A stretch of 64,000 nucleotides of DNA from Achromobacter deleyi (GTDB lineage Bacteria > Pseudomonadota > Gammaproteobacteria > Burkholderiales > Burkholderiaceae_B), in assembly GCF_016127315.1 (NCBI RefSeq), contig NZ_CP065997.1, forward strand, positions 3,038,001-3,102,000, read 5' to 3'. The position numbers and the translations under genes were made by a program. Position 1 is the first letter of the stretch, and each line of letters opens with the position of its first letter. Shown piece after piece: positions 23,676 through 28,767 of this stretch. The notes under the pieces were generated by a model. It saw only the letters and a program-made list of their open reading frames with translations. It was not told the origin of the DNA and searched no databases.

Positions 23676-25094
23676 CTACGCCGCCAGTCTCTGCGGCGCG
23701 CCTTCCAGGTGTTCGCCGAACCAATGCAATGACTGCGCCAGTCCCGCTACCTCGCCCACGATCAGCAGGGCGGGGGAGCGGATGGCGTGCGCCCGCGCCA
23801 AACGCGGCAGGTCTTCCAGCGTGCCGGACAGCACCCGCTGTTCGGGCCGGCTGCCGTTCTCGATCAGCGCGAACGGGGTGGCGGCGGCGCGGCCATGGCG
23901 GATCAGCCGCTGCGTCAGCAGTTCCAGCTGGCCCACGCCCATGTAGAACGCCAGCGTCTGGCGTTCGCGCGCCAGCGCCGGCCAGTCCAGGTTGTCCTCG
24001 TCCTCGCGGCAGTGCGCCGTCACCAGGCGCACCGATTGCGCATGCTCGCGGTGCGTCAGCGGAATGCCGGCATAGGCCGCACAGGCCAGCGCCGCGGTGA
24101 TACCGGGCACCACCTCATAGCGCACGTCGTGCGCGCGCAGGTGTTCCAGTTCCTCGCCGCCGCGGCCGAAGATGAAGGCGTCGCCGCCCTTCAGGCGCAC
24201 CACGCGGCGGCCCAGGCGGGCGTGCTCGACCAGCAGGGCGTGGATGCGCGCCTGGGTGGCGTGATGGTCCTCGCCCGGCAGCTTGCCCACCGCGATGCGT
24301 TCGGCGTCGCGGCGCGCCAGCGACATGATGTCGTCGCTGACCAGCCGGTCGTACAGGATCACGTCGGCCTCGTTCAGCGCGCGCAGCGCCTTCAGCGTCA
24401 GCAGGCCCGGATCGCCGGGGCCGGCGCCGACCAGCACCACGCTGCCCTCGGCCGGCGCCAGCGGCTGGGCCAGGGCGGCTTGCAGCGCGGCTTCGGCGTC
24501 CTGCGGGCGCTGCTGGCGCAGCAGGCCGGCCACCGGACCGTCCAGCAGCCAGTCATAGAAGCGGCGCCGCGCGCCCAGGTCGGGGTGGCCGGCGCGGATG
24601 CGCTGGCGATAGCGTTCGGCCAGGCCGGCCAGGCGGCCCAGGCTGTGGTCGAACAGGGATTCGATGCGTTCGCGCAGGCGCCGCGCCAGCACCGGCGCCA
24701 CCCCCGACGAGGAAATGGCGACGATGACCGGCGAGCGGTCGACGATGGACGGCACCTGGAACGACGACAGTTCGGGGTCGTCCACCACATTGCTGAAGAT
24801 GCGGCGCGCCTGCGCGGCGTCGGAGACCGCCGCGTTGACGCCGCGGTCATCGGTGGCGGCCACCGCCAGCCACGCGCCATCGAGCCAGGCGGGGTCGAAA
24901 CGGCCCGCCAGGTGGCGGATGCGGCCCGCCGCCAGCAGGTCCGCCAGCGCCGGCGTCAGTTCGGGGGCGCCAACGGCGACATCGGCATGGGCTTCGAGCA
25001 GCGCGAGCGTCTTGCGCTCGGCCACCGCGCCACCGCCCACGACCAGCACGGGCCGGTCTTTCAGATCGGCAAAAATCGGGAAAAGCTTCATCAC
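23676..25094 (-). CDS. cysG: Siroheme synthase
   Basis: A 472-residue trifunctional enzyme: uroporphyrinogen-III methyltransferase plus precorrin-2 dehydrogenase and sirohydrochlorin ferrochelatase. The N-terminal Rossmann domain begins [20 protein letters not shown] near residue 14. The methyltransferase domain starts [16 protein letters not shown] near residue 218, with [15 protein letters not shown] further on. Siroheme is the cofactor of nitrite and sulfite reductases. The gene is divergent from a nitrate-type ABC transporter, which makes a link to nitrate assimilation likely. Confidence 0.96.
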
Positions 25095-25371: not shown

Positions 25372-25386
25372 GCACATCGATGGTGC
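25372..25386. promoter_or_regulatory. NtrC-type binding site, distal
   Basis: GCAC-N7-GTGC in the NtrC pattern GCACCA-N3-TGGTGC. The right half TGGTGC is perfect and the left half has two mismatches. Its centre lies 33 bases from the second site, about three helical turns. Confidence 0.6.
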
Positions 25387-25404
25387 GCCGCCGCATTCGT
25401 TTAC

Positions 25405-25419
25405 GCACCAAGTTGGATC
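25405..25419. promoter_or_regulatory. NtrC-type binding site, proximal
   Basis: The left half GCACCA is perfect and the right half TGGATC has two mismatches to TGGTGC, again with three bases between halves. It is about 155 bases upstream of the predicted sigma-54 start, a normal enhancer distance. The tandem arrangement resembles that of glnA enhancers. Confidence 0.6.
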
Positions 25420-25541
25420 GCGAAACGCGCCGGCCATCTTCGGGCGCGGCTCCCGGCCCGGCCGCGCACAGCGCCGCGGATCGCCGCAAACCCAGTGGGC
25501 GCGCGGGGGCGCGGCGCCCGCGCAGGGCACGCCAGGCGACT

Positions 25542-25557
25542 TGGCACGCCGCTTGCT
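25542..25557 (+). promoter_or_regulatory. Sigma-54 (-24/-12) promoter of the nitrate transporter operon
   Basis: TGGCACG, four bases, then TTGCT: an exact match to the sigma-54 consensus, with GG (25543-25544) and GC (25555-25556) ten bases apart. Transcription should start near 25567. This predicts a leader of about 130 bases before nrtA. Together with the NtrC-like sites it indicates induction under nitrogen limitation. Confidence 0.85.
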
Positions 25558-25618
25558 TAACCGTTGATGGACGGGCCGCGCGCGGTCCGACCACGCCAAG
25601 CGCCGCGATCCGCGGCAG

Positions 25619-25682
25619 GGAACAACGACGTTCCGCAGCGCCAACGGGTTGTTCCCGATCGGCGCGCGGGACGTTTTTTTTT
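25619..25682 (+). promoter_or_regulatory. Leader with competing structures and an intrinsic terminator before nrtA
   Basis: The arm CGTTCCGC (25629-25636) pairs with GCGGGACG (25666-25673), with inner CGCC/GGCG and CGGG/CCCG stems, and nine T follow (25674-25682), 3 bases before the ribosome site. Two alternatives exclude this terminator. One is the hairpin GGAAC-AACGAC-GTTCC (25619-25634), whose six-base loop fits the AxxGxx loop recognised by ANTAR proteins such as NasR/NasT. The other is a 9-bp pairing of GGGAACAAC (25618-25626) with GTTGTTCCC (25648-25656). A further stable hairpin lies at 25573-25588. I did not find the second AxxGxx hairpin expected of a full ANTAR target. Confidence 0.65.
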
Positions 25683-25696
25683 GCCAGGAGCCTCGT

Positions 25697-26992
25697 ATGA
25701 CGCCAGTGAAACCCCGCCTTCCCGCCGCCACGGGTCCGGATTCGACCACCGACGCCAGCCGCCGCAAGTGGCTGGCCGGCACCGCGCGCGCCGTGGCCGG
25801 CGCCGGCCTGCTGTCGCTGGTCGACCCGCTGGTGCGCGCCGGCGCCTGGGCCGCGGGCAGCGACGCCCCCGAGAAGACCGAGGTGAAGATCGGCTTCATT
25901 CCGCTGACCGACTGCGCTTCGGTCGTCATGGCCTCGGTGCTGGGCATCGACAAGAAATACGGCGTCACCATCACGCCGTCCAAGGAGGCGTCCTGGGCTG
26001 CGGTGCGCGACAAGTTGCTCAATGGCGAACTGGACATGGCCCACGTGCTGTACGGCCTGATCTACGGCGTGCAGATGGGCGTGGGCGGGCCGAAGAAGGA
26101 CATGGCCGTGCTGATGAACCTGAACCAGAACGGCCAGGCCATCACCCTGTCGAACAAGCTGCTGCAGGCCGGCGCCCGCGACGGCGAGTCGCTTGCCAAG
26201 TTGATGGCGTCCGAGAAGCGCGAATACACCTTCGCCCAGACCTTTCCCACCGGCACCCACGCCATGTGGCTGTACTACTGGCTGGCCGCGTACGGCATCG
26301 ACCCGATGAAGGACGCCAAGGTCATCACCGTGCCGCCGCCGCAGATGGTGGCGAACATGCGCGTGGGCAACATGGACGGCTTCTGCGTCGGCGAACCGTG
26401 GGGCGCGCGCGCCATCCTCGACAAGATCGGCTTCACCGCCGTGACCACCCAGGCCATCTGGACCGATCATCCCGAGAAGGTGCTGGGCACCAGCGCCGAC
26501 TTCGTGACGCGCAATCCGAACACCGCGCGCGCCGTGACCGCCGCCATCCTGGAGGCGGGCAAGTGGATCGACGCCTCGCCCGAGAACCGCCGCAAGACCG
26601 CCGAGACCATCGCCGCCAAGTCGTACGTCAACACCGACGCCAGCGGCATCATCGACCGCATGCTGGGCCAGTACGACGACGGCCTGGGCAAGCGCTGGAC
26701 CGATGCGCACGCGATGCGCTTCTCGGGCGACGGCGCGGCCAATTTCCCCTACCTGAGCGACGGCATGTGGTTCCTGACCCAGCACAAGCGCTGGGGCCTG
26801 CTCAAGGAACATCCCGACTACCTGGCCACGGCGCGCCAGGTCAACCGCATCGACATCTACAAGCAGGCCGCGCAGGCCGCCGGCATCGCCTTGCCCGCCA
26901 GCGAGATGCGCAGTTCCAGGCTGGTCGACGGCGTGGTCTGGGATGGCAGCAACCCGGCGGCCTATGCCGACGGTTTCAAGGTCAAGGCCTGA
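25697..26992 (+). CDS. nrtA: Nitrate/nitrite-type ABC transporter substrate-binding protein
   Basis: A 431-residue periplasmic receptor of the NrtA/CmpA family. The N-terminus holds a twin-arginine-like signal (SRRKWLAGTARAVAG). The mature part starts near KTEVKIGFIPLTDCASVVMA. Family segments include NGQAITLSNKLL, HAMWLYYWLAAYGIDP and GNMDGFCVGEPWGARAI. AGGAG precedes the ATG at 25697. It heads nrtA-nrtB-nrtD behind a sigma-54 promoter and terminator leader. Bicarbonate or another small anion as ligand cannot be excluded from sequence alone. Confidence 0.9.
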   Translation: MTPVKPRLPAATGPDSTTDASRRKWLAGTARAVAGAGLLSLVDPLVRAGAWAAGSDAPEKTEVKIGFIPLTDCASVVMASVLGIDKKYGVTITPSKEASWAAVRDKLLNGELDMAHVLYGLIYGVQMGVGGPKKDMAVLMNLNQNGQAITLSNKLLQAGARDGESLAKLMASEKREYTFAQTFPTGTHAMWLYYWLAAYGIDPMKDAKVITVPPPQMVANMRVGNMDGFCVGEPWGARAILDKIGFTAVTTQAIWTDHPEKVLGTSADFVTRNPNTARAVTAAILEAGKWIDASPENRRKTAETIAAKSYVNTDASGIIDRMLGQYDDGLGKRWTDAHAMRFSGDGAANFPYLSDGMWFLTQHKRWGLLKEHPDYLATARQVNRIDIYKQAAQAAGIALPASEMRSSRLVDGVVWDGSNPAAYADGFKVKA

Positions 26993-27020
26993 GCGCCGCT
27001 TTGCACAGGAGAGACTCGCG

Positions 27021-27890
27021 ATGTCTACCGTAACGAGTATGGAACGGACCTCCCCCGTGTCCGCGCCCCCCGCCGCGGCGCCACAGGCCGCGCCCTGGAC
27101 CGATGCCTGGCGCGAGCGGCTGGAAGCGGCGCTGCGCGCCGTGGTCGGCCCCGTGGCCGGCTTCGCGCTGTTCGTATTGGTCTGGCAGGTGGTGGCCATG
27201 CGCATCCCCGAGATCCCCACCCCGGGCGTGACCTGGCGCGCGGCAGTGGAACTGTTCGCGGATCCGTTCTACGACAACGGCCCCAACGACAAGGGCATCG
27301 GCTGGAACCTGCTGGCCTCGCTGCAGCGGGTCGGCATCGGCTTCGGCCTGGCGGCGCTGGTGGGCATCCCGGTGGGGTTCGCCATCGGCCGCTACGCGCC
27401 GGTGCGGGCGATGTTCTCGCCCATCGTCAGCCTGCTGCGGCCGGTGTCGCCGCTGGCCTGGCTGCCGCTCGGCCTGCTGCTGTTCAAGGCCGCCAACCCG
27501 GCCGCGATCTGGGCGATCTTCATCTGTTCGATCTGGCCCATGATCATCAACACGGCGGTCGGCGTGTCGCGCGTGCCGCAGGACTACCTGAACGTGGCGC
27601 GGGTGCTGAACCTGTCGGAATGGAAGGTCACCACCAAGGTGCTGCTGCCGGCCGTGCTGCCCTACATGCTGACCGGCGTGCGGCTGTCGATCGGCACCGC
27701 CTGGCTGGTGATCGTCGCGGCCGAGATGCTGACCGGCGGCACCGGCATCGGCTTCTGGCTGTGGGACGAGTGGAACAACCTGAAGGTCGAGCACATCGTC
27801 ATTGCCATTTTCGTGATCGGCATCGTCGGCCTGATCCTGGAAACGCTGCTGGTCGCGCTGGCCCGCCGCTTCACCTACACCGAGGAGTAG
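27021..27890 (+). CDS. nrtB: Nitrate-type ABC transporter permease
   Basis: A 289-residue inner-membrane permease of the NrtB/SsuC type with about six hydrophobic segments. The ABC-interacting EAA-like loop is seen in the segment LNVARVLNLSEWKVTTKVLLP near residue 190. AGGAGA lies before the ATG at 27021; an upstream frame extension overlaps nrtA and is not used. It forms the channel for the receptor and ATPase of the same operon. Confidence 0.92.
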   Translation: MSTVTSMERTSPVSAPPAAAPQAAPWTDAWRERLEAALRAVVGPVAGFALFVLVWQVVAMRIPEIPTPGVTWRAAVELFADPFYDNGPNDKGIGWNLLASLQRVGIGFGLAALVGIPVGFAIGRYAPVRAMFSPIVSLLRPVSPLAWLPLGLLLFKAANPAAIWAIFICSIWPMIINTAVGVSRVPQDYLNVARVLNLSEWKVTTKVLLPAVLPYMLTGVRLSIGTAWLVIVAAEMLTGGTGIGFWLWDEWNNLKVEHIVIAIFVIGIVGLILETLLVALARRFTYTEE

Positions 27891-27894
27891 CGCC

Positions 27895-28767
27895 ATGAAG
27901 AAATTCGTACGCATCGAACGCGTGGGCCAGACCTTCGCCACCCGCAAGGGCGCCTTCGTGGCGCTGCGCGACATCGACCTGACGGTGGAGCAGGGCGAGT
28001 TCATCACCCTGATCGGCCATTCCGGCTGCGGCAAGTCCACCCTGCTGAACCTGATCGCCGGCCTGACCCGTCCGACCAGCGGCGTGCTGCTGTGCGCCGA
28101 GCGCGAGATCACCGGCCCCGGCCCGGACCGCGCCGTGGTGTTCCAGAACCACTCGCTGCTGCCCTGGCTGACCTGCTTTCAGAACGTGCACCTGGCGGTG
28201 GAACGGGTCTTCGGCGCGTCGGAGAAACGGGCCCAGCTGGCCGAGCGCACCCGCGCCGCGCTCGACCTGGTGGGCCTGCTGCCGGCGCAGAACAAGCTGC
28301 CGCGCGAGATCTCGGGCGGCATGAAGCAGCGCGTCGGCATCGCCCGCGCGCTGGCCATCGAGCCGGGCGTGCTGCTGATGGACGAGCCGTTCGGCGCGCT
28401 CGACGCGCTGACCCGCGCGCACCTGCAGGACGAACTGCTCAAGATCGTCGCCAAGACCCGCACCACCACCATCATGGTCACGCACGACGTGGACGAGGCG
28501 GTGCTGCTGTCCGACCGCATCGTCATGCTGACCAACGGACCGGCCGCGACCATCGGCGAGATCCTGCCGGTGCCGCTGGCGCGGCCGCGCGACCGGGTGC
28601 GGCTGGCCAATGACCCCATCTACCTGTCGTGCCGCGCCGCGGTGGTGGACTTCCTGCACCGGCGCCACGGCAACCCCGAGCGGACCCAGGCGCCCGTAGC
28701 CCTGGCGGCGGTGCCCGATGCCGACGCCGAGCCGGCGCAGGCCGAGGGCTCGCGCGCCGTGGCCTGA
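27895..28767 (+). CDS. nrtD: Nitrate-type ABC transporter ATP-binding protein
   Basis: A 290-residue ATPase. Walker A is GHSGCGKST near residue 42, the Q-loop VVFQNHSLLPWLT, the signature ISGGMKQRVGIARALA and Walker B VLLMDEPFGALDALT. The H-loop is MVTHDVDEA. It starts four bases after the permease stop. The C-terminal tail of about 40 residues is Ala/Pro rich and not conserved. No nitrate or nitrite reductase gene follows in this window. Confidence 0.93.
   Translation: MKKFVRIERVGQTFATRKGAFVALRDIDLTVEQGEFITLIGHSGCGKSTLLNLIAGLTRPTSGVLLCAEREITGPGPDRAVVFQNHSLLPWLTCFQNVHLAVERVFGASEKRAQLAERTRAALDLVGLLPAQNKLPREISGGMKQRVGIARALAIEPGVLLMDEPFGALDALTRAHLQDELLKIVAKTRTTTIMVTHDVDEAVLLSDRIVMLTNGPAATIGEILPVPLARPRDRVRLANDPIYLSCRAAVVDFLHRRHGNPERTQAPVALAAVPDADAEPAQAEGSRAVA

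Follow-up and report, generated by a model that had tools for sequence, protein, structure and literature searches.

A putative sigma-54-dependent ANTAR leader with one AxxGxx hexaloop upstream of the nitrate transporter operon nrtABC of Achromobacter deleyi

The window, that is, the whole analysed stretch of 64,000 nucleotides of Achromobacter deleyi DNA, belongs to a genome assembled as a single contig of 6.99 Mb. It contains a nitrate transport operon nrtABC. The siroheme synthase gene cysG is divergent from nrtA, and this neighbour fits nitrite reduction. The features of the locus are listed below in window positions.

23676-25094, minus strand: siroheme synthase gene cysG (NF007922, 610 bits against a cut-off of 400)
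25372-25386: NtrC-like enhancer site 1, GCACATCGATGGTGC, 9 of 10 half-site bases
25405-25419: NtrC-like enhancer site 2, GCACCAAGTTGGATC, 8 of 10 half-site bases, 33 bp from site 1
25542-25557, plus strand: sigma-54 promoter, TGGCACGCCGCTTGCT, exact TGGCACN5TTGCT
25570-25591, plus strand: P1 hairpin, 7 of 8 drawn pairs form; loop GCGCGC at 25578-25583
25602-25616, plus strand: linker hairpin GCCGC...GCGGC between P1 and P2
25619-25634, plus strand: P2 antiterminator hairpin GGAAC-AACGAC-GTTCC, -6.6 kcal/mol
25628-25682, plus strand: intrinsic terminator, -31.7 kcal/mol, z -5.3, with nine T at 25674-25682
25697-26992, plus strand: gene of the nrtA-like nitrate-binding protein (PF13379; best solved match NrtA 2g29, E 6.6e-83)
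27021-27890, plus strand: permease gene nrtB (TIGR01183, 242.6 bits against a cut-off of 209), start picked by eye inside ORF 26943-27890
27895-28767, plus strand: ATP-binding protein gene nrtC (TIGR01184, 335.3 bits against a cut-off of 291.8)

These matches bear out the nitrate-type transporter proposed in an earlier sequence-only reading of the region. The nrtA-like protein has a twin-arginine-type signal, judged by eye, and no NCBIfam match at 1e-20; its closest named relatives are Achromobacter proteins, the best being from A. dolens (97%). At the gathering threshold, Rfam finds six tRNAs and nothing else across the window. The tRNA genes form a cluster on the minus strand (313-1126) with two equal-score pairs, possibly a tandem duplication. 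Rfam candidates for rdlD, ctRNA and P11 scored far under their thresholds and were rejected.

The sigma-54 element has its -24 GG at 25543-25544 and its -12 GC at 25555-25556, in the arrangement GG-N10-GC, and transcription of nrtA would start at about 25567. A loose form of the element is found upstream of nrtA at 42 of the 43 same-family loci and at 59 of 80 named loci. The consensus of NtrC sites is GCACC-N5-GGTGC, and a pair of sites was accepted at a spacing of 32-34 bp with a score of at least 16 out of 20. Such pairs are present in all 30 Achromobacter upstream regions (window included), where dinucleotide shuffles expect 0.13. Their spacing is 32-33 bp throughout, and the distance from site 1 to the promoter ranges from 145 to 170 bp. 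Conservation of the pair despite the varying distance supports NtrC binding, and NtrC would be the activator at these putative sites. Both the exact sigma-54 consensus and the two sites 33 bp apart had been read from the letters of the window, and both hold.

The terminator is conserved and far more stable than expected: none of 200 shuffles was equally stable, and 99.8% of alignment cells are paired across relatives. The leader is of the ANTAR type, with GGAAC-AACGAC-GTTCC as its P2 antiterminator hairpin. The P2 hexaloop AACGAC (25624-25629) has A1 and G4 in place, and the 3' arm of the hairpin (25630-25634) falls within the 5' arm of the terminator, as in ANTAR leaders of the nasF/eut type. 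The loop is unchanged in all 32 Achromobacter nrtA leaders, and the stem is paired in 100% of alignment cells. The nine-T terminator and the P2 hairpin sharing its arm had thus been correctly proposed from a single sequence, and both withstand comparison with related genomes. The linker hairpin is conserved as well: four of its five pairs are invariant in the same 32 leaders, and the fifth is GC in 31 and GU in one. The sequence-only reading had also suggested a 9-bp pairing of GGGAACAAC with GTTGTTCCC that would exclude the terminator. This pairing exists in the window but is present in only 5 of the 32 leaders, all from the window's own clade, and thus is not a conserved switch. The minimum free energy fold of the whole leader pairs the poly-U tract and so is uninformative about a co-transcriptional switch.

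The P1 hairpin has retained its stem, but its loop has lost A1 and G4. Other Achromobacter leaders have P1 hexaloops such as AACGGC or AACGAA; that of the window is GCGCGC. The second ANTAR hairpin that the earlier reading could not find is indeed missing, as the stretch from the inferred start site to P2 contains no AxxGxx hexaloop on a stem of at least 4 bp. Across relatives 88.6% of P1 stem cells at nrtA are paired, and four of the eight pairs show changes on both sides; in the window G-C is swapped for C-G in columns 6-23 and 7-22. The P1 covariation scores at nrtA and nirB are above those of 500 out of 500 shuffles; these scores are inflated by related alignment rows. The count of covarying pairs was matched by 5 of 500 shuffles and, in other alignments, by 41 of 500.

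Three ANTAR genes were found in the genome of the window: one NIT-ANTAR gene, encoding NasR (NIT 157 bits, ANTAR 62 bits), and two of the AmiR type. A nitrate-sensing ANTAR protein is therefore encoded, and no NasT-like match was observed among the three. The NasR gene is located 3' of nirB and of a nirD-like frame, named by eye; the presumed nirD stretch has no Pfam match. The AmiR-type genes adjoin receptor-like ORFs of the AmiC/UrtA kind, again by eye. A pattern combining the sigma-54 element, 40-70 nt and the P2 core has exactly three matches in the 6.99 Mb, and the reversed-pattern control has none. The three leaders precede nrtA, nirB and a divergent nasC-like gene, the latter named by eye from its ORF. 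NasR would be the protein acting on the nrtA leader, and nitrate the signal at elongation.

The sample of the genus consisted of 43 Achromobacter genomes, 33 of them with nrtA, and 32 leaders were read (G173 was excluded at a contig end). A NasT-like gene was called beside nrtA when no more than about 1.2 kb separated the nrtA start from an ANTAR match of at least 61 bits; that of locus L161, which has no NCBIfam match, was assigned by eye. In 23 other Achromobacter genomes a NasT-like gene adjoins nrtA. The P1 loop has A1 and G4 in all 23 leaders with this neighbour, and neither base is found in any of the 9 without it. An automatic rule requiring a 4-bp stem finds the P1 hexaloop in 21 of 23 versus 0 of 9, with chance expectations of 1.09 and 0.55. 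In the nine leaders without the AxxGxx P1 loop 12 of 22 P1 columns are variable, compared with 0 of 10 in the 5' arm and loop of P2. However, leaders that keep the loop have about equally variable P1 columns (10 of 22), so this variability alone proves nothing. The nine losses may represent one event. NasR was confirmed by protein search in two of these nine genomes (G000, G098). The other seven probably carry it too, judging from a strong ANTAR match in a long frame, which adjoins nirB where nirB is on the same contig. At L161 (644) and L162 (671) a separate sigma-54-like element lies immediately before the start of the NasT-like gene, which is divergent from nrtA.

A wider search covered 151 genomes of the family. 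An nrtA match reached 1e-60 in 58 of them and was close, with E no higher than 6e-174, in 44. Upstream regions were obtained for 43 of the 44 (in G114 the contig begins inside the gene) and 42 leaders were judged, G031 having no visible promoter in the stretch taken. NasR and ANTAR matches were sought in 45 genomes: the 42, G031, and the Achromobacter genomes G118 and G045, which lack a close nrtA. A NasT-like gene was here an ANTAR match of at least 60 bits that is not a NasR match, the cut being chosen post hoc from the AmiR-type scores of the window's own genome; weaker matches (e.g. in G026 and G061) were counted as AmiR-type by score alone. An ANTAR leader precedes nrtA in 28 of the 42, and 27 of these 28 carry a NasR or NasT-like gene. 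The exception, G012, has no ANTAR match. The promoter without an ANTAR leader was observed in the remaining 14, one of which (G087) has NasR. The association of leader with regulator has a Fisher p of 7e-9 with relatedness ignored. The promoter-only loci are L025-L027, L029-L033, L035, L036, L038 and L042-L044; 13 of them have neither a NasR nor a NasT-like match. Such relatives show the elongation layer absent beneath a retained sigma-54 promoter.

The P1 loop at nrtA was also lost in five genomes of two other genera (G068, and G077, G139, G120 and G100). All five have NasR and no NasT-like match. Conversely, the loop is present in all 14 other family genomes that have both a NasT-like match and a leader, G011 among them having NasR as well. 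A strict rule that NasR targets never have the P1 loop does not hold. At nrtA it is broken by G009, G005 and G008, which keep P1 AxxGxx with NasR and no NasT-like match, and by four Comamonadaceae-type genomes (G194, G219, G223, G235) whose only ANTAR match is NasR; at nirB it is broken by G011 and G008. The rule that NasT always goes with P1 has possible exceptions in G047 (at nirB) and in G188, which has no P1 loop and whose single ANTAR gene has no NasR match at 1e-30.

In Achromobacter, nirB was found in 42 of the 43 genomes, and 30 leaders were taken. All 30 have the P2 AxxGxx loop and none has a P1 hexaloop on a 4-bp stem between the start site and P2. The nearest cases are an AGCGAC hexaloop on a 3-bp stem in G164 and a 4-bp ACCGGC hexaloop in G163 that overlaps P2 itself. 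The place of P1 is occupied by a covarying hairpin with changes on both sides in three of four pairs and a loop that is often GCAA or GCGA; over 42 nirB leaders the folds of this region gain little stability over shuffles (mean z -0.95). Fifteen nirB leaders were considered outside the genus. Eleven come from NasR genomes, and two of these have the P1 hexaloop (G011, G008). Among the four from genomes without a NasR match, the hexaloop is found in G096 and G116 but not in G047, and G135 has no such leader.

When 21 NasR proteins of 20 genomes were placed in a midpoint-rooted tree, the window's NasR fell into a group of 14 (support 97/96). None of the 13 nirB leaders read from these genomes (all but G045) has a P1 hexaloop. 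The nearest branches outside the group are those of G011 and G008 (its first NasR, G008a), whose nirB leaders do have it; in the other NasR clade (G194, G219, G223, G235 and the second copy, G008b) the nrtA leaders of the genomes keep P1. This distribution suggests a single origin of the one-hexaloop nirB leaders in the window's NasR lineage. NasR of G009 and G005 belongs to the 14, yet the AxxGxx P1 is kept at their nrtA. Residue differences in the ANTAR domain do not cleanly separate the NasR groups by eye. The window's NasR (L034:14192-15442) is 62-66% identical to NasR of G003, G075, G118 and G137, while NirB is 86-87% identical to NirB of the same genomes. Either a fast change or an exchange of the regulator may account for this divergence.

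The leader resembles several known systems. As in nasF of Klebsiella oxytoca, there is a nitrate assimilation operon with general nitrogen control, a NIT-ANTAR regulator and a P2 AxxGxx hairpin overlapping the terminator. However, in Klebsiella the P1 stem and A1 and G4 of its loop are described as essential for NasR (passages of PMC3369936), whereas here the P1 loop is GCGCGC. According to parts of PMC7496416, NasR is a constitutive dimer and binds P1P2 at about 1 uM and P2 alone at about 12 uM, that is, about 12-fold more weakly. The leader is also the counterpart of the 23 NasT-neighboured Achromobacter leaders in its sigma-54 element, P1 stem, P2 and terminator; it differs from NasS-NasT leaders in that the genome lacks a NasT-like match and the P1 loop is changed. 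In Paracoccus, NasT binds the nasA leader bearing a hairpin (PMC3795266, in part). The principle of the P2 antiterminator is shared with the dual-hexaloop eut leaders of Enterococcus EutV, where two-component signalling operates and both loops are required (PMC3369931 and PMC8934654, in excerpts). According to PMC8934654, termination is prevented only if both hexaloops are contacted in turn by an ANTAR dimer; the same work gives one hexaloop as the minimal binding unit and states that extension of the linker abolishes antitermination.

We consider it rather probable that a nitrate uptake operon is controlled here in two layers and that the one P2 hexaloop suffices for this NasR lineage. When nitrogen is limiting, NtrC would bind the conserved sites 120-170 bp upstream and activate the sigma-54 polymerase at the promoter. 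The transcript would then stop at the terminator unless an ANTAR protein stabilises P2, which is built from the first arm of the terminator; here conservation supports the structure, and the function is presumed. The protein would be NasR, the sole NIT-ANTAR protein among the three ANTAR proteins found in the genome, activated by nitrate or nitrite. The single hexaloop of P2 would be enough, with P1 merely a hairpin. The ancestral nrtA leader presumably had both loops, as it does where the NasT-like gene persists, and the P1 loop would have been lost under NasR alone. The two layers postulated by the sequence-only reading are supported by the conserved sites, P2 and the NasR gene. Their combination, which it had singled out, is not in itself new: general nitrogen control together with pathway-specific control by NasR or NasT is already described for nas operons (PMC3795266, in part). 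The new part is the P1 variant.

The altered P1 admits other explanations. One possibility, somewhat unlikely in our opinion, is that the leader still works with two hairpins, P1 being a docking site that NasR recognizes independently of loop sequence, so that only the base contact in P1 has changed. The covariation that maintains the stem in nrtA and nirB leaders agrees with this, as does the EutV structure, in which many contacts involve the RNA backbone and only that to G4 is base-specific (PMC8934654, in part). However, at the place of P1 the nirB leaders have tetraloop-like loops or loops of other sizes, which the ANTAR domain may exclude (same source, in part), and the Klebsiella requirement for A1 and G4 speaks against a sequence-independent contact. 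Decay of the nitrate layer is less likely still. It would mean that the P1 loop eroded after loss of the NasT-like gene, leaving mainly an attenuator with a weak nitrate response or none, and that control by NasR is confined to nirB and the nasC-like gene. The loss of the loop does coincide with the absence of the NasT-like gene, and in the window it is cysG, not nasT, that diverges from nrtA. But erosion is at odds with the compensatory changes in the P1 stem, with the invariant 5' arm and loop of P2 in the nine leaders with a variable P1, and with the same single-hexaloop layout in the nirB and nasC-like leaders near NasR.

Two further explanations do not depend on P1 and both seem very improbable. 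An AmiR-type protein could act on the nrtA leader instead of NasR, since the genome has two such genes; but all three leaders precede nitrate or nitrite genes, NasR is encoded just 3' of nirB, and the AmiR-type genes have receptor-like neighbours of their own. Alternatively, the operon could simply be driven by NtrC and sigma-54 and have a leader terminator that is not regulated, a simplicity for which the 14 promoter-only relatives provide a precedent. Against this, leader and regulator are nearly always present or absent together in the 42 family genomes judged, and the 5' arm of P2 is conserved though it lies outside the terminator stem. A generalisation of the preferred reading, sufficiency of the P2 hexaloop, can be offered tentatively: the NasR lineage of Achromobacter and relatives may antiterminate via a single hexaloop, contrary to the two-hexaloop rule, the P1 loop serving as a regulator code carried by NasT targets and not by those of this NasR. 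If so, the code would allow both nitrate antiterminators to operate together in one cell. In the literature searched, with most subscription papers outside its coverage, no description of naturally occurring NasR leaders with a single hexaloop was found, and none of Achromobacter nitrate leaders at the level of titles and abstracts. Conserved natural one-hexaloop leaders linked to NasR make the two-hexaloop rule directly testable, and Achromobacter offers natural paired variants of one gene, which differ within the genus in the presence of the P1 loop and of the NasT-like gene.

The Rfam family narK RNA (RF03032) has the consensus, by eye, GGCAC-N5-UUGCU, a hairpin with an AACGGC loop and CGAC-AAAGAC-GUCG. 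It looks like a sigma-54 promoter followed by ANTAR P1 and P2 hexaloop hairpins, and our finding thus suggests an identity for this RNA. Among 15 loci scanned, two matched the model at E 0.01: the nrtA leader L008 of A. animicus (1292-1355), with 44.8 bits against a gathering threshold of 43.2, and L073, with 38.9 bits, below the cut-off. The window at 25543-25606 scored 19.6 bits, under the threshold, the P1 loop being among the unmatched positions. A search of the window's own genome gave 17 matches at E values of 10 or less, the best at 0.18. None passed the cut-off, and matches were likewise obtained in 13 of 14 control genomes. This search was therefore unusable for the regulon, and the sigma-54 plus P2 pattern was used instead.

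In several nrtA leaders of the wider collection the terminator is preceded by three AxxGxx hexaloop hairpins, not two (L055, L076, L084, L101, L111, L113, L122, L125). Many of these are from Comamonadaceae.
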